Below are positions 17,765 to 27,367 of a stretch of DNA of 33,974 bases, in pieces; the first letter of the stretch is position 1; each line of letters opens with the position of its first letter. The notes under the pieces were generated by a model. It saw only the letters and a program-made list of their open reading frames with translations, did no database searches and had not been told where the DNA came from. This DNA is from Negativicutes bacterium. Lineage in GTDB: Bacteria > Bacillota > Negativicutes > Anaeromusales > Anaeromusaceae. The stretch spans positions 1-33,974 of the forward strand of contig SAAJ01000032.1 in the NCBI GenBank assembly GCA_009929485.1, written 5' to 3'. A program made the translations under genes and the position numbers.

Positions 17765-17841
<77 letters not shown>

Positions 17842-18828: not shown

Positions 18829-18888
18829 ATTTTGGAAAAACGAGGGGGGCAAGAACTGACAAAAGCAAAAATAAAAATCTACAGATGA

Positions 18889-18918
18889 GGGGGTAAGCAA
18901 GTGCCAAAAGGCCCAAAA
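18889..18918 (+). repeat. Composite repeat copy A (plus orientation)
   Basis: GGGGGTA, five bases, then GTGCCAAAA and GGCCCAAAA back to back. The preceding bases AATCTACAGATGA are also shared with copy B2 in inverted form, so the similarity extends over about 43 bases. Confidence 0.65.
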
Positions 18919-19105
18919 CTCAGAAGGCTAGTAAATACAGGCATTTGAGGACATGAATTGCACAACAGCCCAAGGCCCAAAAGGTCCCAAAACCCCATGC
19001 ACAGGGTTAGGGTACCTACAAAATTAATGAGAGGGGTGATGGCCTGGAATTGGTGCGGTCGGGGCGTGTGGCTAAATTTTGACGAAATGAAAGGGGAAAA
19101 ACACT

Positions 19106-19309
19106 ATGTCGGATGCAAAAAACTTTTATGATTTGGACGAATTGCGTGAGGAGGTTTTCCAAAACAAGATTAGCAAGGCTCATATCTACAATCTATGCAA
19201 TCGTGGCGACATTCCCACGGTGCGGATCGGGCGGCGGCTGCTTATTCCTAGCTGGTATGTGGAAAAGCTTCTGCATGGGCCGGAAGAAGGCGAACAGGCA
19301 AGCGTTTAA
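19106..19309 (+). CDS. Excisionase-like helix-turn-helix protein
   Basis: A 67-residue protein of the HTH_17/Xis type: SKAHIYNLCNRGDIPTVRIG and then RRLLIPSWYVEKLL is the usual helix-turn-helix plus wing pattern of small excisionases and their relatives. Such proteins bend DNA and steer integrase toward excision, or act as repressors. AAGGGG lies 9 bases before the ATG. It opens the run of genes leading to the replication proteins. Confidence 0.7.
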   Translation: MSDAKNFYDLDELREEVFQNKISKAHIYNLCNRGDIPTVRIGRRLLIPSWYVEKLLHGPEEGEQASV

Positions 19310-19322
19310 GGAGGCGGGTGCC

Positions 19323-19553
19323 ATGCTTACAGAGGCATACCTGCAAGGGTTTAGTTTCTCGTTTGTGACGGTTGATTATGTGGTTTATACGAATGCCCAA
19401 GGGAATGATGCTTGCATAGTCTTTAGGCATGGAGAAGATGGCTATGGGCATATTAACCAGGCAGGGGAAAAGCCTATAGAGCTGACAGCAGAGCAAGCAA
19501 GGCTGATTGCAGGGGCGGCCTATGAAAGGCAAATAAAAAACCCTGCCAGGTGA
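19323..19553 (+). CDS. Small unknown element protein, 76 residues
   Basis: Begins MLTEAYLQGFSFSFVTVDYV at an ATG with AAGGAGG 8 bases upstream. I see alternating beta-strand and helix patterns but no known family. A CCCTGCC/GGCAGGG hairpin (19541-19561) overlaps its stop codon, which may limit read-through into the next gene. Confidence 0.55.
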   Translation: MLTEAYLQGFSFSFVTVDYVVYTNAQGNDACIVFRHGEDGYGHINQAGEKPIELTAEQARLIAGAAYERQIKNPAR

Positions 19554-19581
19554 CGGCAGGGTAGGAAATGGGGTTATCTAC

Positions 19582-20169
19582 TTGCATTATACAGCGGGCG
19601 GCATAGTACAGGCAATAAAGGGCCGGTACAGCTTGCAGGATGCGTTGCAAGAAGCTGGCGTAAAGGTCGGGCGGAATAAAAAGGCGTTGTGCTTATGGCA
19701 TAATGACCGGTCGCCGTCTATGCACGTCTACCGGGAAAAAGTGCATTGCTTTGCTTGCGGGCGGGGCGGCGATGCTATCGACGTATTTGCAGCCGCTAAC
19801 GGCATAGAAACAAAAGCGGCTGTACAAGCATTGGCGGCGCGATTTGGGTTTAAAGATGGCATCCCGCCCAGCGCGATAGAGGAATGGAATTGGCGGCAAT
19901 GGCAGCTGCAGAGCGAGCGGCAGGAAGAACAAGACATAGAGGCCGCTTATTGGGGCCTGTGCGGGCTGCTACACAGCTTAGAGGACAGCATGAGGGTTGT
20001 ACTACCTACGCCAGAAGCAGCGGAAGACGAGGCTGCCAGTGCGGCAGCTGCGCGGATCGGCGCGCTACGGTCTGTTGTTGAGGCTGTTCTAGATGGATTG
20101 GCAAGCGAAAACCAGGAAGAGCAGCGCAAGGCGCTACAGATTGCAAAAGAGAGGGGGTTGCTTACTTAA
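19582..20169 (+). CDS. CHC2 zinc-finger (DnaG-type N-terminal) protein
   Basis: 195 residues with the CHC2 zinc ribbon of bacterial primases: CLWH (Cys37, His40), SPSMHVY, then CFAC (Cys56, Cys59) followed by GGDAIDV. In DnaG this finger binds single-stranded template. The rest (about 100-195) is helical; I see neither a TOPRIM nor an AEP catalytic domain, so this is the template-binding part alone. The start is TTG at 19582 with only a weak ribosome site. Its stop overlaps the ATG of the next gene by one base, so the two proteins are made together and probably act together. Confidence 0.75.
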   Translation: MHYTAGGIVQAIKGRYSLQDALQEAGVKVGRNKKALCLWHNDRSPSMHVYREKVHCFACGRGGDAIDVFAAANGIETKAAVQALAARFGFKDGIPPSAIEEWNWRQWQLQSERQEEQDIEAAYWGLCGLLHSLEDSMRVVLPTPEAAEDEAASAAAARIGALRSVVEAVLDGLASENQEEQRKALQIAKERGLLT

Positions 20170-21746
20170 TGTTACAGATTGCGAGCGTTACACAATTATT
20201 AGCAAATGAAAAACCGGCGGCGGTTGACGATTGGCCGGAACCGGGAGAAATAAAAGAAAGTGTATTGCTTCCAGTAGCGCAGATAACGCCGGAAATGCTG
20301 CCAAAGGCGTTTAGGGAGTGGTTGTTTGATGTGTCCTATAGGATGCAATGCCCGTTAGAGTTCGTCGCTGTAGGGGCGATGGTAGCGGCGTCATCGGTTA
20401 TTGGGGCGGGGTGTGCTATTCGTCCCAAGCGCCGCGACAACTGGACGGTAATACCTAATCTATGGGGGGCCATTGTGGCAAGGCCTTCACAGAAGAAAAG
20501 TCCTAGCTTAAAAGAAGTGCTGCGGCCACTTGATGCACTGGAAGAAGCGGCGGCAGAGCAAAACGAGATTGACGCTATGCTGCACGAAGCCAAAAGAGAA
20601 AGCTTTAAGGCAACTAAAGAAGCCATAAAAAAAGATATGGTTAAGGCAGCAGCACGGCAGCCCAACAAAGCCAAGGATAAGCCAACCAAGAGCATGCAGG
20701 ACTTGGAAATAGAGTATGCGGCAATGGTCGAGCCTGAACCAGCAGGGGCTAAGCGCTTTATTGCCAAGGATGCAACGATAGAGCGTCTAGGAGAGCTACT
20801 AAGAGATAATCCGCGGGGGCTGCTAGTGTTCCGGGATGAATTGATGGGGCTGTTGGCGTCCTGGGAACGGGAAGACCGGCTGCAGGATAGAGCGTTCTAC
20901 CTTGAGGCATGGAATGGGAACCAAGGGTTTATTACGGACCGGATCGGGCGGGGAACGGTTGTAATTAAAAATACCTGCTTGGCGCTATTGGGCGGTATTC
21001 AGCCAGGGAAGCTGCAGATGTATTTGGTTCAATGTGCAGACGGCTTGAAAAATGACGGAATGCTGCAGCGCTTTCAACTCTTGGTATATCCCGACGAACC
21101 GCAGGGAGGGAAAATTATTGATGAATACCCAAACGGCGAAGCGCTTAAGAATGCCTATGTAGTTTTCAAGAAGCTGGCTGAAATGGACTTTTTACAAGCT
21201 GGGGCGGTATCGGAAATCAGCGAAGGCGACAAAGAAAATGTGTTCTTTCGCTTTACCGATAGGGCGCAGGAATTATTCTATGAGTGGCTGCCAGACATTG
21301 AGGCAAGGGCTAAAGCGGAAGAGTACCCGCCTATGTGCGAGCACTTGTCAAAATATCCTAGCCTGGTACCGTCTTTGGCGCTGGTGTTCCACTTGATAGA
21401 GGTCGCTGGCGGGGCTGCGCCGGGGCCAGTGAGTGAGGCGGCAATGATACTTGCCTGCACCTGGGCAGACGTTCTGGAAAGTCACGCTCGCAGGGTCTAT
21501 GGCATGTCGGGCGATACAAGACAGGCGGCAGCGGCAGCGCTTGCCAAGAAGATAAAGGCTGGCAAGCTGGGGAAAAGGTTTACTGTGCGAGATGTGTATA
21601 AAAAACATTGGGCATTATTAGAAGAAGATGACACGAGGGCTGCTTGCCAAGAATTAGAAGCGGAAGGTTGGCTGCGAAGGGTACCGTTTGAGGGGCCAGG
21701 GAGGCCAAAAGAAGAATACGAGGTAAACCCTAAAATTTTTACTTAG
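20169..21746 (+). CDS. DUF3987-family helicase-like ATPase, element replication protein
   Basis: A 525-residue protein of the DUF3987/YfjI type, P-loop ATPases related to the helicase part of phage and plasmid primase-helicases. The N-terminal core (LEFVAVGAMVAASSVIGAG, IPNLWGAIVARPSQKKSPSL at 95-114) holds an altered Walker A (SQKKS in place of GxGKS). A Walker-B-like LLVFRDELMGLL follows at about 217-228, and IKNTCLALLGGIQPGKL further on. A basic, helical linker occupies about 120-200. The C-terminus looks like a winged helix. Coupled to the CHC2 gene and followed by inverted composite repeats, it is the likely replication initiator or helicase. Confidence 0.75.
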   Translation: MLQIASVTQLLANEKPAAVDDWPEPGEIKESVLLPVAQITPEMLPKAFREWLFDVSYRMQCPLEFVAVGAMVAASSVIGAGCAIRPKRRDNWTVIPNLWGAIVARPSQKKSPSLKEVLRPLDALEEAAAEQNEIDAMLHEAKRESFKATKEAIKKDMVKAAARQPNKAKDKPTKSMQDLEIEYAAMVEPEPAGAKRFIAKDATIERLGELLRDNPRGLLVFRDELMGLLASWEREDRLQDRAFYLEAWNGNQGFITDRIGRGTVVIKNTCLALLGGIQPGKLQMYLVQCADGLKNDGMLQRFQLLVYPDEPQGGKIIDEYPNGEALKNAYVVFKKLAEMDFLQAGAVSEISEGDKENVFFRFTDRAQELFYEWLPDIEARAKAEEYPPMCEHLSKYPSLVPSLALVFHLIEVAGGAAPGPVSEAAMILACTWADVLESHARRVYGMSGDTRQAAAAALAKKIKAGKLGKRFTVRDVYKKHWALLEEDDTRAACQELEAEGWLRRVPFEGPGRPKEEYEVNPKIFT

Positions 21747-21748
21747 AT

Positions 21749-21780
21749 GGGGGGGTAAGGAAGGCCCAAAAGTGACAAAA
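21749..21780 (+). repeat. Composite repeat copy B1 (plus orientation)
   Basis: GGGGGGGTA, five bases, then GGCCCAAAA and GTGACAAAA back to back, starting three bases after the DUF3987 stop. It faces copy B2 to form a long inverted structure. Confidence 0.65.
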
Positions 21781-21785
21781 AGGGT

Positions 21786-21815
21786 TTTTGGGCCTTTTGT
21801 CACCTCGTACCCCCC
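21786..21815 (-). repeat. Composite repeat copy B2 (minus orientation)
   Basis: Read on the minus strand: GGGGGGTA, four bases, GTGACAAAA then GGCCCAAAA. Together with B1 it makes an inverted repeat (21745-21821) followed by eight T residues (21827-21834), so the same segment could also terminate the replication operon. Confidence 0.65.
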
Positions 21816-21853
21816 TCATCTGTAGATTTTTTTTAGAAATGGAGGCGTTTTTA

Positions 21854-22240
21854 GTGGAAACATTGCCGGTAAGTAAATGGATGGCCCGCCTTTATGAGTT
21901 GGAAGGGAAGCCCTTGCCGGATGCGGCTGCGAAGCCGAAGCCTTCTTTGGATGTAGACGGGGGCAGGCAGGCCCTTCTTAAGGCATACAATGGAGCATTG
22001 AAGGAGCCTGTCCTGCTGGCGGTAGCGGCGGAATACCAAAGCTTGTGGGGATGTGAACGGCTGTGGGTCGTACCCGCCCAACAGGACAAGGAAGGGCGGG
22101 ACGCGCTAGCTTTTACACAAGATGAATTGTTTACGGTGATTGATGCTGTAATGGCCAACAAAGATGGAGCTCATGCCTTGATTCAAGGCTACAGGATGGC
22201 AGGTGGCCGGATTGAGTGCAAGAAAGAGGAACCGTATTGA
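21854..22240 (+). CDS. Unknown element protein, 128 residues
   Basis: The frame reads VETLPVSKWMARLYELEGKP and continues as a mixed helical protein with an acidic patch around 60-100. I start at GTG 21854 because GGAGG (21841-21845) lies 8 bases upstream; an ATG at 21839 sits on top of that site. No family is recognised. It begins a second run of small genes after the replication pair. Confidence 0.55.
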   Translation: METLPVSKWMARLYELEGKPLPDAAAKPKPSLDVDGGRQALLKAYNGALKEPVLLAVAAEYQSLWGCERLWVVPAQQDKEGRDALAFTQDELFTVIDAVMANKDGAHALIQGYRMAGGRIECKKEEPY

Positions 22241-22255
22241 TGGAGGAGGCAAGAC

Positions 22256-22489
22256 ATGAAAGGTTTTATTTATTGTTCTGGCATTCCAAGCGGTAATGAC
22301 ATATACATTAAGGCTGATTGTATTGTTTTGGTTAGGGAATGCACGGAAGAAAAATGGTGGACTGGTGAAGCAACGCGAGTAAAATGCACCAAGATAGAAT
22401 ACGCTGGCGGGTGTAAGAGCGTTTTAGTCTGGGAAACGCCGTATGAAGTCTTTAGGCTGATAGAAGACGCTTTGACCGTCAATGATTAA
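22256..22489 (+). CDS. Unknown small element protein, 77 residues
   Basis: MKGFIYCSGIPSGNDIYIKA and then strand-rich sequence to TAA; five cysteines but no CxxC pair. GGAGGAGG lies 6-7 bases before the ATG. Followed by a small CGCCG/CGGCG hairpin (22500-22513). No family is recognised. Confidence 0.55.
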   Translation: MKGFIYCSGIPSGNDIYIKADCIVLVRECTEEKWWTGEATRVKCTKIEYAGGCKSVLVWETPYEVFRLIEDALTVND

Positions 22490-22529
22490 ATAAGAAAACC
22501 GCCGTCAACGGCGTATTTGAGGAGTGTTA

Positions 22530-22676
22530 ATGAGCATGAAAGAAACGAGTATAGAAGACCTTGAACATTTGGCAATGATTTGCAATGAAGCGAGACGGCT
22601 GAAGATAACGCCTATCGAGTATATGGAAAAAATGCGGGTTGCTATGCGGATTCTAGGGTTGGAGGCAGCACAATGA
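22530..22676 (+). CDS. Unknown small element protein, 48 residues
   Basis: MSMKETSIEDLEHLAMICNE and on to a TGA that overlaps the ATG of the next gene (ATGA). GAGGAG precedes by 5 bases (11 for the second ATG at 22536). The sequence is helical and amphipathic. The ribosome site and the coupling to the next gene support it as real. Confidence 0.5.
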   Translation: MSMKETSIEDLEHLAMICNEARRLKITPIEYMEKMRVAMRILGLEAAQ

Positions 22677-22972
22677 AGAGTAAAATTACCGGGCGGGATT
22701 TCCAAGAAGGAGAGTTTGAGGCTAACTGGCAACAGTTTTGCGGCCGGCGGCAAGAGGACCTGGAAGAAAAGCTGGGCAGCTTAGGCGGTTCTAGTGAGTA
22801 TGTCCGCCTGGATCGTTTCCTGGGGGATGCGCTTGGCAGTATAGACGACCAGGAAAAAGCAGATGAAATCATGGGTGCAGTGATAGCTTTGCAGGCAAAT
22901 GCTACATACGCGCACTACAACAGAGGCTTTTTGGATGGTATCAAGTTTGCCTTAATGGCAGGAAAGTTGTAG
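22673..22972 (+). CDS. Unknown element protein, 99 residues
   Basis: A mostly helical, charged protein (MKSKITGRDFQEGEFEANWQ ...). GGAGG is 7 bases before the ATG, inside the end of the preceding small gene. The C-terminal part has an HYNRGFLDGIKFALM helix, similar in style to the small protein at 24891-25163 (YKKGLRDGFKLAEEL), so the two may be distant relatives. Function unknown. Confidence 0.55.
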   Translation: MKSKITGRDFQEGEFEANWQQFCGRRQEDLEEKLGSLGGSSEYVRLDRFLGDALGSIDDQEKADEIMGAVIALQANATYAHYNRGFLDGIKFALMAGKL

Positions 22973-22978
22973 GCGGAT

Positions 22979-23365
22979 ATGGAGGCGGTTGATTTTGACG
23001 AGCTATGGGGAGTGCTTTTGACCATGCCCAAGGTATACCAGCGCCTCTTGATGCTGCGTGAACGAACGGGTTTAAGCGCCGGCAATTACGGAGATAGAGT
23101 ACAAACCAGCAAGGTAAGCGACAGAACGGCAGCCATGGCTATTAGCCGAATGGAAGCCGAGAGAAAGGCGCGGCTACTGCGTATGGCTAGGCGTTGGATT
23201 GAGCTAGAAATGCCTGTAGCGGGGCGGGTGCTGCTCTTGGAATACTGGCGCGGGCATGACATAGAGGAAGCTGCAAAGGAGGCCAGATTACAATTAGGAA
23301 GTGCAATGAAAGTATGGGTTCAAATGGGGAACAGCCTGCGAGCGTTCGCGGCAGCAGAAGGGTGA
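22979..23365 (+). CDS. Possible ArpU/RinA-like late transcription regulator
   Basis: 128 residues. The C-terminal half, EMPVAGRVLLLEYWRGHDIE followed by EAAKEARLQLGSAMKVWVQM, has the spacing of a sigma-70 region-4-like helix-turn-helix as found in ArpU/DUF1492 proteins, which switch on late phage genes. The N-terminal half has a MLRERTG helix and a SDRTAAMAISRME segment. The match is by pattern only and the recognition helix is degenerate. It lies just before a short zinc-ribbon-like gene, as such regulators often lie at the end of early phage operons. Confidence 0.4.
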   Translation: MEAVDFDELWGVLLTMPKVYQRLLMLRERTGLSAGNYGDRVQTSKVSDRTAAMAISRMEAERKARLLRMARRWIELEMPVAGRVLLLEYWRGHDIEEAAKEARLQLGSAMKVWVQMGNSLRAFAAAEG

Positions 23366-23508
23366 AGGGCCTGTGTTCTTCTTGCCTGCGGTATGGCTGG
23401 CAGGTGATATGTCCTATGCCAGACAGAGCGCCCAGGGGCGCACGCATGGAGAAGGGGGCAGTTGTTTTCTGTCCCTTTCGATGGCCGGGAAGAACGGGTC
23501 CTTCCTAG
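23362..23508 (+). CDS. Small Cys-rich (zinc-ribbon-like) protein, 48 residues
   Basis: The GTG start overlaps the preceding stop (GTGA) and has AGAAG in front. The product begins VKGLCSSCLRYGWQVICPMP and has four cysteines (5, 8, 17, 37), the first two as CxxC, which would suit a small zinc-binding fold. It is too short to assign. Confidence 0.35.
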   Translation: MKGLCSSCLRYGWQVICPMPDRAPRGARMEKGAVVFCPFRWPGRTGPS

Positions 23509-23544
23509 CTGGGTGGGGGCTGTAGGGGTCGTTTATGTAGAAAA

Positions 23545-23584
23545 ACTGTTGGAGAATGTTGGAAAATGCTGAGAAATGTTGAAA
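23545..23584 (+). repeat. Four tandem 10-bp repeats (AATGTTGGAA-like)
   Basis: Four units in register, ACTGTTGGAG, AATGTTGGAA, AATGCTGAGA and AATGTTGAAA, lie end to end. The 10-base period places the same face of the helix toward a binding protein. They are in the 271-bp gap between the small Cys-rich gene and the 206-residue gene. Confidence 0.6.
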
Positions 23585-23718
23585 TTACTCTGCTGAAAAG
23601 TCAGCTCAGAACGGGCAAAATGAATTTTGCGAGGCCATAAAAAAAGGAAGAGCTAAAACCGACGCCTAGGTGGTCAAAATCCAGATTTGGATTCTGATTT
23701 AAGAGGGAGGCGGGGAAT

Positions 23719-23844
23719 ATGCTTAAACTGGATCATGGCAGCGAATTATGTAACACGCTAAAAAAAAGAGGTGGCGAACATGTTCAAACTAATTCACGGC
23801 GGCGCGGATCGGCGGCGAGTAGACAAGGCGGGCTTGTATCTTAA
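23719..23844 (+). pseudogene. Duplicated start region of the 206-residue gene
   Basis: GGGAGGCGGGGAAT precedes an ATG whose product starts MLKLDHGSEL. Sixty bases downstream, GAGGTGGCGAAC precedes the ATG of the next gene, whose product starts MFKLIHGGAD. The ribosome site, spacing and first codons are clearly alike. The first frame then runs only 41 codons and overlaps the second in another frame, so it is probably a relic of a local duplication or a short leader peptide. Confidence 0.35.
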
Positions 23845-24400
23845 GGCATTAGACCGAACGGCAGGCAAGCTGCAGCAGGAGCCAGAAAACAAGCTACTGC
23901 AAATGAGGTCCGTATTTTATGGTGTGCGCTATGTTGTGGCTGCAATGCGGGGCCGTCCAGCCAGTAAAGAACTCATTGGCAGGGTTGTTGATCTGATCGG
24001 CCAGTTGACGCCTAGAGAGCTGCTGCAGATATTCCCTGTGGAAAAGACCTACGACGGCGAGCGCTGGGAGGCAAAAGACTATTTCTTTACTATGGATGTG
24101 CTGCGCAAGCATGGCCTGGATAAGCCATTAGGCAAGAACGTGCTTGACGTTCTTTGGGATTATACCAACATTCACGTTAGGTTGTTTAATGTGGCTATGC
24201 TGAACGCTGTTGATGCGCTGCGGCGTATGGAAGGGCAAGAGACATTGATGCAAGAATGGGCAGCCAGTAATGGTGAGAAGCTGACCACATATACGCTGCA
24301 CAGGGACAGAAAGGGGAGGCGTTGGATGATAAACAACGAGACAGGCGAGCGGCAGCGGGTAAAGGCAAGGCGGCCACACTGGTATATACCCCGGGGCTAA
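23780..24400 (+). CDS. Unknown element protein, 206 residues
   Basis: A basic, helical protein: MFKLIHGGADRRRVDKAGLY at the start, a hydrophobic central part (TMDVLRKHGLDKPLG, NIHVRLFNVAMLNAVDALRR) and a C-terminal HRDRKGRRWMINNETGERQ strand pair ending in a basic tail. GAGGTGG precedes the ATG at 23780 by 5 bases; a GTG at 23771 is a less likely start. I recognise no family. Basic tail and position after a late-regulator-like gene would allow a DNA-binding role, but this is inference. Confidence 0.55.
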   Translation: MFKLIHGGADRRRVDKAGLYLKALDRTAGKLQQEPENKLLQMRSVFYGVRYVVAAMRGRPASKELIGRVVDLIGQLTPRELLQIFPVEKTYDGERWEAKDYFFTMDVLRKHGLDKPLGKNVLDVLWDYTNIHVRLFNVAMLNAVDALRRMEGQETLMQEWAASNGEKLTTYTLHRDRKGRRWMINNETGERQRVKARRPHWYIPRG

Positions 24401-24423
24401 AAAATGAATTTCCCTGTCAAATA

Positions 24424-24438
24424 CCCGGACCGGGTGGG
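24424..24438. repeat. CCCGGACCGGGTGGG motif, copy 1
   Basis: The CCCGG/CCGGG arms are a perfect inverted repeat around one A, followed by TGGG. Copies 2 and 3 share the flanking TGGG. Confidence 0.7.
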
Positions 24439-24564
24439 AACAAGACAAAATAAATTTTTTATCTGTTTCATGTGAGTGGGGGGTATTGAGTAGATAGGCC
24501 ACGCTGGGCGCGGGTGCAGCAGAAGCATGAGCCCCCCCGGCTTGGCTAGTGATTAGCCTATTTG

Positions 24565-24578
24565 CCCGGACCGGTGGG
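24565..24578. repeat. CCCGGACCGGTGGG motif, copy 2
   Basis: One G shorter than copies 1 and 3, 141 bases after copy 1. Confidence 0.65.
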
Positions 24579-24663
24579 GCTCCTTCACGTAATACACAGG
24601 TTGCGCGCGTAACCCCCTACCCAAAAGGCAGGCCCCCCTATGGTCGTGAAATTCTCTTTTTCT

Positions 24664-24678
24664 CCCGGACCGGGTGGG
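24664..24678. repeat. CCCGGACCGGGTGGG motif, copy 3
   Basis: Identical to copy 1, 99 bases after copy 2. A half site GACCGGGTG follows at 24709-24717. Confidence 0.7.
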
Positions 24679-24890
24679 GGCCTTAAATTTTGTGCGCTAT
24701 GCTCGCGTGACCGGGTGTAGTCTGGCGGGGTTCGCGTAGGCGTGGTAATTGACGCTTGAAGAACGAGAAGACAGGCTTGCTAACACTTGGACGCAAGAAC
24801 AAAGAAAACAGCGCTACAGTCATTTCTGTGCGCCTTAAGGCATAACGGGCGGCGGGCCCTTCTGGCGAAAAAAGATTAGGGGGCGTTAGT

Positions 24891-25163
24891 ATGAGAACGA
24901 GAACTGCAACAGGTGCCGAACTTCTTGAGGCTGCCTTTAGTCTCTATTTAGAAGGGCCGTTGGCGGCCGCCCGTGTGAAAGAAGAGAAGGCGCAGGGATT
25001 GTTTGAGCAATGGGAAGCAGTAATGGAAGGGCTAGATATTGAGAAGGTCAGGGAGATCGAGGCGGTATACATGGACAGGGTTCTTTATGCGGAGCGTAGT
25101 TTTTACAAGAAGGGTTTGCGTGATGGTTTTAAGCTGGCAGAAGAATTGCGGAAGACGCGGTGA
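24891..25163 (+). CDS. Unknown element protein, 90 residues
   Basis: A helical, charged protein (MRTRTATGAELLEAAFSLYL ...) with the C-terminal segment YKKGLRDGFKLAEELRKT. AGGGGG lies about 7 bases before the ATG. It converges with the minus-strand coiled-coil gene. No known family. Confidence 0.55.
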   Translation: MRTRTATGAELLEAAFSLYLEGPLAAARVKEEKAQGLFEQWEAVMEGLDIEKVREIEAVYMDRVLYAERSFYKKGLRDGFKLAEELRKTR

Positions 25164-25190
25164 CGGATCCAATGTTGGATTGGTGAGGGT

Positions 25191-25215
25191 AAAAGAAAAA
25201 CCGCCACGCTGGCGG
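25191..25215 (-). terminator. Terminator of the coiled-coil gene
   Basis: On the minus strand CCGCC/GGCGG (25211-25215 with 25201-25205) around a five-base loop is followed by TTTTTCTTTT (complement of 25191-25200). It ends the gene at 25234. Confidence 0.7.
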
Positions 25216-25233
25216 CGGGCGGTTCGTCAATGC

Positions 25234-25548
25234 TTAGGCTTTCTTGCGAAGGCGGACAAAGTTTCTGTCGTGCTGGGCTACTTTGCCCACGACATAGGAG
25301 AGATCGGTTTGGATTGAATCAAGGCGCTCGTCTAAGTGTTCCTGCAGGCGCTCTATTTGTTCGCCGCGCAGGGTGTAGCCGTCAAAGAGGGCTGCAATCT
25401 TGGTACCCATATCATTTTCCATGCGGGCAAGGGAGCCTTCCATGGAGCTAAGGCGAGTGTCTGTGCGTTCTTGGCTGGCCTTCATTTCGGATACGTCAGA
25501 TTTGAGCTCTTTCATTTCAGACAGGAGCTGCTTAAGCAATTCTTCCAT
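25234..25548 (-). CDS. Small coiled-coil protein of unknown role
   Basis: 104 residues that are almost wholly coiled coil: MEELLKQLLSEMKELKSDVS, then MKASQERTDTRLSSMEGSLA, heptads continuing to the basic end FVRLRKKA. Proteins of this style are widespread in Firmicutes and their mobile elements without known function. AAAGG lies 10 bases before the ATG at 25548; an ATG at 25557 adds three residues. It is the only minus-strand gene of the element and is transcribed away from the integrase. Confidence 0.65.
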   Translation of the reverse strand: MEELLKQLLSEMKELKSDVSEMKASQERTDTRLSSMEGSLARMENDMGTKIAALFDGYTLRGEQIERLQEHLDERLDSIQTDLSYVVGKVAQHDRNFVRLRKKA

Positions 25549-25617
25549 GTGGTTCATCCTTTCTTGGGAGTGTGTGCTTATAGTATAGCGCCAAGAATAG
25601 CAGAATGGAAGAGGGGG

Positions 25618-25646
25618 TTTTGTCACTTTTGGCACTACCTACCCCC
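25618..25646 (-). repeat. Composite repeat copy C (minus orientation)
   Basis: Read on the minus strand: GGGGGTA, four bases, GTGCCAAAA then GTGACAAAA. It lies in the gap between the coiled-coil gene and the integrase, 3.8 kb from the B copies. Confidence 0.65.
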
Positions 25647-25767: not shown

Positions 25768-25873
25768 GAATAAAATTAGGCTTCAGTGCGAGCAAGTCAA
25801 GATAGAGAGAAGAAAAAATGTAACTTTTAGGCATGGGCGTAACGTGCCTTTTTATTCAGGAGGTGAAACCGTA

Positions 25874-27112
25874 ATGGCTAAAGCAAGGGCTGCTGGCGAA
25901 GGAACAGTTTACCGGAATGCAAAAACAGACCGGTGGGAAGGTCAATTTTCTTATGAAGACCCGAAGACAGGGAAAAAAGGCATTCGCAAGAAGTTTGCTG
26001 GTGCTACGCAAAAAGAAGTTGCAGCAAAAGGCAAGGCTTTTCTTGATGGCCTAAAGGAAGGGCTGCTGCCCAATGCCGGGAAGATGACGGTGTGGGAGTG
26101 GCTGGATCGGTGGCTGACTGACTATATCAAGCCCAAGGTGCGGCTGAAGACCTATGAAAAGTATGAGACATGCTTGCGCCTATACATTAAGCCAACTCTT
26201 GGGGCTTTTGTTATGATGCGGCTAAAGGCGCCGGATGTGCAGCGGGTTTTCAACGAAATGCGTAGCAGCGGCGGGCAAAAAGGGGAAGGGTTGTCTGCAT
26301 CTACAGTGCGAGGGACGCGAAGATATTTCATCATGGCAATTGAGAAAGCAGTTCGCCTGGGGTATTTGGGCCGGAATGTGGTCAAGGATACGGACCCGCC
26401 TCAGTTGGTGAAGGAGCCAATTCATCCACTCACCAAGGAGCAGGCAGAAGCTTTGCTTGCTGCGGCGAAGGATGGGGAGTACATTTACTATGGCCTAAAG
26501 CAGCGACGGAAGCCAACGCCGGACAGCAACTATCAGAAGGAGCTGGCGTATACAGCGGTACTGCTGGCACTCAATACGGGAATGCGTCTGGGAGAAGTAC
26601 TGGGGCTGAAATGGATAGACATTGATTTTAAGGCCAATGTAGTAAACGTGCAGCGCTCCCTGGTGTCTACCAGAGCCAAGAGTATGATTTTTGAAGAGCC
26701 GAAAACTAAAGGATCCAAAAGAAAGATACCTATTCCGGCAAAGGTGACGAAAGCTTTAGAATGCTACGAGGAAGAGCAGCAGCGGTACAGTGATTTACTG
26801 GGCGATAAATTCAAAAATACAGAAGGACTTGTATTTGCCAACCTGTGGGGGCATCCATTGAATAACAGCAACTTTACAGGCAGGTATTTCAAAAAGCTGG
26901 CGGCCTATGTGGGACTTGATAAAAGCTTTTCCTTTCATGATTTGCGGCATACTCACGCGACGATGCTTTTAAGTAAAGGGGTCAACATTAAAGTTATATC
27001 GGAACGGCTGGGCCATTGCAAAATACAAATGACGCTAGATACCTATAGTCACTTAATGCCGGACATGCAGGAAACGGCTGTATTGGCATTAGAAAGCTTG
27101 AATATTCTTTGA
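25874..27112 (+). CDS. int: Tyrosine-family site-specific integrase
   Basis: A 412-residue lambda/Tn916-type recombinase. The N-terminal part (GEGTVYRNAKTDRWEGQFSY ...) is an arm-site-binding domain, residues about 65-185 are the SAM-like core-binding domain (TVWEWLDRWL ...), and the catalytic domain carries Arg238 (GMRLGEVLG), a beta-hairpin Lys region (KTKGSKRKIPI), His355 and Arg358 (HDLRHTHAT), His381 (LGHCK) and the nucleophile Tyr391 (DTYSHL). All key residues are present. The start is ATG 25874 behind AGGAGGTGA. It reads toward attR, 210 bases away, and is expected to recombine the 45-bp tRNA-Arg repeats. Confidence 0.95.
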   Translation: MAKARAAGEGTVYRNAKTDRWEGQFSYEDPKTGKKGIRKKFAGATQKEVAAKGKAFLDGLKEGLLPNAGKMTVWEWLDRWLTDYIKPKVRLKTYEKYETCLRLYIKPTLGAFVMMRLKAPDVQRVFNEMRSSGGQKGEGLSASTVRGTRRYFIMAIEKAVRLGYLGRNVVKDTDPPQLVKEPIHPLTKEQAEALLAAAKDGEYIYYGLKQRRKPTPDSNYQKELAYTAVLLALNTGMRLGEVLGLKWIDIDFKANVVNVQRSLVSTRAKSMIFEEPKTKGSKRKIPIPAKVTKALECYEEEQQRYSDLLGDKFKNTEGLVFANLWGHPLNNSNFTGRYFKKLAAYVGLDKSFSFHDLRHTHATMLLSKGVNIKVISERLGHCKIQMTLDTYSHLMPDMQETAVLALESLNIL

Positions 27113-27322: not shown

Positions 27323-27367
27323 CTTCTAAGCCGTCGGTCGGGAGTTCGAATCTCTCCTGGGACACCA
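27323..27367 (+). repeat. attR: partial tRNA-Arg copy
   Basis: A perfect 45-bp copy of the 3' part of tRNA-Arg (17797-17841), without the 5' half, so it is not a functional tRNA gene. It marks the right boundary of the element. Confidence 0.95.

Follow-up and report, generated by a model that had tools for sequence, protein, structure and literature searches.

The DUF3987 helicase family appears, from comparison of its gene loci, to carry its replication origin on the tail of its own gene. The window, i.e. the whole stretch of 33,974 nucleotides analysed here, contains an integrated element in which two pairs of 9-mers in opposite orientation, designated B1 and B2, directly follow the DUF3987 gene. 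B1/B2 is probably the replication origin of this tRNA-Arg element, with the 9-mers bound by the winged helix of the DUF3987 protein, and the repeats are most likely the places at which the element's own helicase docks to copy the DNA. At the 3' ends of DUF3987 genes, in this element and, with other letters, in many unrelated bacteria, paired and inverted 9-mers recur, and they do so with a specific period.

The element comprises 9.57 kb and is inserted in a tRNA-Arg gene, with its borders at positions 17797 and 27367 according to a comparison with a genome of the same species (G060) that lacks the element and contains the 45-bp att sequence once. The attL site (17797..17841, plus strand) forms the 3' end of the tRNA-Arg gene (17765-17841) and is repeated perfectly and in direct orientation as attR at the right end of the element (27323..27367, plus strand). 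The plus strand encodes a 67-aa Xis/AlpA-like HTH_17 protein (19106..19309; PF12728, E 1e-07), a 195-aa CHC2 zinc-ribbon primase-type protein (19582..20169; PF01807, E 4.9e-14; phrog_11992), the DUF3987 protein as candidate initiator (20169..21746; PF13148, E 2.1e-86) and a tyrosine integrase (25844..27112; PF00589). Accordingly, integrase, excision gene and attachment site, the features by which a PICI or phage satellite is recognized, are all present; a megablast search of the element against phages gave no match. No second Pfam domain was found in the CHC2 protein, which seems by its sequence to be a reduced primase module.

The four composite copies described in the sequence-only reading were recovered exactly and at the same positions. 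Copy A (18889-18918, plus strand; GGGGGTA-AGCAA-GTGCCAAAA-GGCCCAAAA) precedes the xis-like gene by about 190 bp. Copy B1 (21749-21780, plus strand; GGGGGGGTA-AGGAA-GGCCCAAAA-GTGACAAAA) begins 3 bp behind the stop codon of DUF3987 and is separated by the 5-bp spacer AGGGT from copy B2 (21786-21815, minus strand; GGGGGGTA-CGAG-GTGACAAAA-GGCCCAAAA), and copy C (25618-25646, minus strand; GGGGGTA-GGTA-GTGCCAAAA-GTGACAAAA) stands alone as a single pair ahead of the integrase gene. The additional 9-mers that had been listed at 18974-18992 (plus strand) are present as GGCCCAAAA and the 10-mer GGTCCCAAAA, and the Pfam assignments agree with the Xis-like, CHC2 and DUF3987 genes that had been placed between A and B2. 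The stretch that A and B2 had been said to share in inverted orientation belongs to the arms of a 49-nt inverted repeat with 86% complementarity (18870-18918 and 21786-21834). A fifth, degenerate copy (18844-18873, plus strand; GGGGGGCA-AGAA-CTGACAAAA-GCAAAAATA), detected by a repeat search at 64% identity, had been overlooked. The DNA just before the G-run of each of the four copies has an AT content of 75-85%, the average of the element being 51%, and these AT-rich tracts stand outside both unit sets of B1/B2, not between them.

The composite repeats are real and specific to this element. The pattern GGGGTA-N3..7-GKSMCAAAA-GKSMCAAAA has four matches in the whole 3.2-Mb genome (3,216,546 bases), all of them inside the window; the pattern read backwards has none, and the composite pattern itself has none in 59 other genomes and, in its exact form, none in the viral contig collection. 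The repeats are therefore not due to chance. The lack of exact matches in viral contigs is explained by the fact that the unit sequence changes from one element to another.

Among related elements, the exact letters of the repeats are not conserved, but their arrangement and place are. The conserved architecture consists of two tandem 9-mers, a spacer and two inverted 9-mers, positioned at the DUF3987 stop codon. Two members of the class, L008 and L009, encode DUF3987 proteins that are 57% and 54% identical, respectively, to that of the window, and contain right after the stop codon the units GTGTCAAAA-GGCACAAAA in tandem and GTATCAAAA-GTATCAGAA inverted (L008) and the units CCAACAAAA-CCTACAAAA in tandem and CCTACAAAA-CCTACAGAA inverted (L009). 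The same design is found in a Pelotomaculum contig and in an Acinetobacter plasmid (CTGACAAAA-CTGACAGAA), and it is from these four arrays with other letters that the retention of arrangement and place is deduced. Absence of the repeats from relatives, which had been named as grounds for giving up the original proposal, thus applies to the exact sequence, but not to the architecture at the DUF3987 stop codon. Likewise, four copies do bracket the genes in the window, as had been claimed, but only B1/B2 is conserved, since no counterparts of A and C exist in L009, the closest relative with long flanks.

Some further features were observed at these loci. In L008 (15000-14960, minus strand), L013 (7640-7690) and L015 (5640-5710) the array is followed by a small gene, the product of which begins with MG[KR]W; further 9-mer pairs or a whole array lie within its coding sequence, where the 9-mers encode TDKTD- or VLAVP-like peptides. 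The alphaproteobacterial plasmids L033 (8150-8270) and L034 (5266-5290) share, at the stop codon of DUF3987, a stretch of the TTGCTTGCGCGCG type, which in L033 is a long inverted repeat and represents a different-looking version of the same place. Moreover, relatives were noticed whose DUF3987 chain is extended at the N-terminus by a long additional part (711 and 772 aa), in contrast to the small CHC2 protein of the window.

To determine the distribution of the architecture, the region from -250 to +550 around the DUF3987 stop codon was scanned, and an array was scored where one tandem pair and one inverted tandem pair together showed no more than 4 mismatches relative to a single unit. A first set of 67 DUF3987 loci, mostly from Pseudomonadota and Bacillota along with plasmids and one phage, yielded arrays of period 9 at 23 of the 67 loci. 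The corresponding controls were 1/63 for upstream sequence, 1/57 for sequence far downstream, 0/66 for the gene interior and 0/134 for shuffled sequences. Being linked by descent, the loci tested do not count as independent cases. Arrays of period 8 were detected at 7 of the 67 loci and in none of the controls, and periods 7, 10, 11 and 12 gave no array in this set. With thresholds fixed beforehand and left unchanged, a second set of 29 loci from genomes not used before yielded arrays of period 9 at 12 loci (interior 0/29, upstream 0/26, shuffled 0/116), and one locus passed at period 11; the shuffled sequences of both sets together amount to 0/250. Strict matches begin between -91 and +186 nt from the DUF3987 stop codon, sometimes within the last codons, and some arrays are located inside coding sequence (L230-L237, L211). 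About 60% of the DUF3987 loci have no array at the strict threshold, and none passed it at the 3' end of yfjI in CP4-57 of E. coli K-12. The B1/B2 array of the window is itself heterogeneous and, with 6 mismatches to one consensus, falls below this threshold. The flanking G-run plus TA occurs in 9 of 68 cases at array-bearing loci versus 38 of 1700 in the background and is accordingly enriched, but not general.

Additionally, viral contigs were scanned with the CAAAA inverted-tandem pattern only, without protein information. This motif-first approach delivered loci with perfect or near-perfect agreement of four units; in L071, L083, L129 and L143 a DUF3987 gene is present and the array adjoins its 3' end, the four units being identical in L071 and L143. 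Good-to-perfect four-unit arrays were also seen in the viral contigs L066, L111, L130 and L142 (perfect in L066, L111 and L142), with no DUF3987 gene in the stretch examined. By eye, the array of L111 stands beside a DnaB-like N-terminal fragment. The four-unit array may serve other helicase families too.

The unit sequence is uniform within one element and differs widely between elements (CTGACAAAA, CCATCAAAA, CTGCTACTT, TTGCGACAC, TGCCGCCA, CGCAATATC, TGCTAAAGT and others). Among five close relatives the unit appears to follow the C-terminal domain of DUF3987 and not the helicase core. In alignment columns 465-515, which precede the part encoded by the array, pairs with the same unit are 66-82% identical and pairs with different units 50-62%, whereas the ranges of core identity overlap (80-90% and 78-95%, respectively). 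The loci L234 and L237, for example, share 95% identity in the core and 58% in columns 465-515, and their units are different. When all 31 elements are taken together, the distance between units is correlated with identity in the core as well as in the C-terminus, and the C-terminus is not favoured: its partial correlation given the core (-0.20) is weaker than the reverse (-0.41).

Structure prediction suggests that the DUF3987 protein ends in a winged helix at residues of about 450-524 and that its core is an MCM-like AAA+ helicase. The model, based on an alignment of 10 sequences, has a mean pLDDT of 74.7, with values of 50-60 at core residues 200-310, and its C-terminus (450-519) is arranged as helix-helix-helix-strand-wing-strand. 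Among solved structures, MCM replicative helicases come closest (Z 13-14 over about 270 residues, core rmsd 4 Å), some of these matches extending to residue 520, with weak Foldseek E-values. A first model from 6 sequences (pLDDT 64.5) gave no match below E 0.001 and many weak matches to winged-helix proteins, and a search of PDB sequences with the DUF3987 profile gave no match.

These data can be combined into a possible course of replication. Integrase and Xis would excise the element, whereupon the winged helix of DUF3987 would bind the 9-mers and two rings of the helicase would be loaded face to face by the inverted unit sets. Adjacent AT-rich DNA might then melt, the tracts directly outside each G-run being a possible place of opening, and priming by the CHC2 protein or a host primase would follow. 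Copy A, which precedes the xis-rep operon, and copy C, which precedes int, probably serve as additional control sites bound by the same initiator, with a potential role in autoregulation or copy control; copy A probably represents secondary or operator iterons. The 9-mer sequence would co-evolve with the winged helix of DUF3987, so each element would have its own specificity. On balance we lean towards the wider view that DUF3987 proteins are widespread MCM-like self-loading initiators, the origins of which form one undescribed class in Bacillota, Pseudomonadota, phages and plasmids, built of inverted sets of tandem 9-bp iterons that lie at or within the 3'-terminal part of the initiator gene and the unit sequence of which diversifies with the winged helix. 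An origin running into the gene may explain the odd repeated C-terminal tails of some DUF3987 proteins (TKPTK, VPKVPK, CANCANCA). This view provides a testable function for DUF3987, a large family in satellites, plasmids, phages and genomic islands, as well as a simple rule for locating DUF3987 origins, and the agreement of unit and winged helix seen in close relatives would make it possible to predict element incompatibility and to study a recognition code.

The proposed origin resembles known replicons of mobile elements. The C-terminal domains of SaPI Rep and Cch2 bind iterons located directly downstream of their own genes (PMC7581432), and in E. coli PICIs two iteron sets flank an AT-rich region, the pri-rep-ori segment of one such PICI replicating a plasmid (PMC6092414). 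As in the pri-rep-ori modules of SaPIs and PICIs, the initiator helicase gene is directly followed here, in B1/B2 and in the relatives, by a two-set origin of short iterons, with xis, int and att nearby (PMC7581432, PMC6092414). The C-terminal DNA-binding domain that gives specificity in SaPIs and PICIs has its predicted counterpart in the winged helix of DUF3987, a fold expected to bind dsDNA. In contrast to these systems, the helicase belongs to the family DUF3987, the units are tandem 9-mers or in some cases 8-mers, and the two sets flank the 5-bp spacer AGGGT, or a short and mostly G/C-rich one in compact relatives, instead of an AT-rich melting region. The putative origin of SCCmec Cch2 (and Cch) likewise lies just downstream of the helicase gene, where direct repeats are bound by the helicase through its C-terminal domain (PMC7581432), as is proposed here for the winged helix of DUF3987. 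However, the iterons of that direct-repeat region are 5 nt long, inverted repeats are not needed for binding there, and the helicase families differ.

Comparison with other DUF3987 loci lends good support to the earlier suggestion that the iteron-like units form an origin, or a system for initiator binding, beside a helicase-type protein, but the label "new type" was too strong, because SaPI/PICI and SCCmec replicons already have helicase-bound iterons downstream of the gene (PMC7581432, PMC6092414). New with respect to known iteron replicons are the unusual 9-bp unit, the very short spacer of this element and the broad spread. A helicase function has been predicted for DUF3987 (PMC5862659), which also serves as the primase marker of the Vibrio PICMI satellites; the search model for these satellites demands int, AlpA/HTH_17 and a primase of the DUF3987 or DUF5906 type (PMC10803314). 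PICMIs are likewise small tyrosine-integrase elements, but reside at fis and use a helper phage, the present element being located at tRNA-Arg; their description mentions no iterons (PMC10803314). In our incomplete coverage of the literature, DUF3987 is treated as a helicase or primase only, without iterons or an origin (PMC5862659, PMC10803314).

The first alternative is that the 9-mers are operators or excision sites of the HTH_17 protein, which resembles Xis, AlpA and Cox and would bind tandem 9-bp repeats and control the xis-rep operon and int. The positions of A upstream of the xis-like gene and of C upstream of int agree with this assumption. The Cox protein of P2 binds tandem 9-bp boxes. 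AlpA is moreover known to activate a satellite in E. coli (PMC6092414). An operator of the Cox/AlpA kind would, however, be expected at the xis/alpA promoter or at the att arms, and only copy A is located before xis; the place conserved across elements is the 3' end of DUF3987, and the units track the DUF3987 C-terminus in the five close relatives. No sigma-70 promoter was found around A, B or C, and both A and C lie over 1 kb from the element ends and att sites, which also rules out att arm sites as an explanation of the arrays. Operators of the HTH_17 protein are unlikely as an explanation of the 9-mers, although this protein may bind copies A and C.

That the inverted arrays act as RNA hairpins, in a terminator or attenuator, or as ssDNA hairpin structures is highly improbable, although compact relatives (e.g. 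L066, L071 and L142) can form an 18-bp stem. The argument rests on unit counts and order: the numbers of units on the two sides can be unequal (3/5, 4/5, 2/3), A and C are solitary pairs with no inverted partner nearby, and the unit types of B1 and B2 occur in swapped order, so that the arms do not pair in full. Furthermore, the arrays of L230-L237 and L211 are within coding sequence, and no terminator was found at 21600-21950. It is scarcely credible that xis, CHC2 and DUF3987 form a small transposable unit with A and B2 as its terminal inverted repeats. The 49-nt inverted arms do surround these genes, but no transposase was identified among them, the actual borders of the element are formed by the 45-bp att repeats, and in relatives the B-type array is retained at the 3' end while an A-type partner is missing.

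Apart from the origin region in which the DUF3987 protein is the proposed initiator, two minor features of the window were recorded. The sequence CCCGGACCGGGTGGG occurs in three copies, one of them 87% alike, at 24424-24678 in a 360-bp non-coding stretch between genes of the element, and this triplet is a possible packaging or regulatory site. Outside the element, at 106-2733, dCache, HAMP and PAS domains and a GGDEF domain reduced to its first half are fused in a single ORF of 876 aa with an amino-acid permease, of which the C-terminal half is present; this ORF is a chimeric gene or an assembly join.
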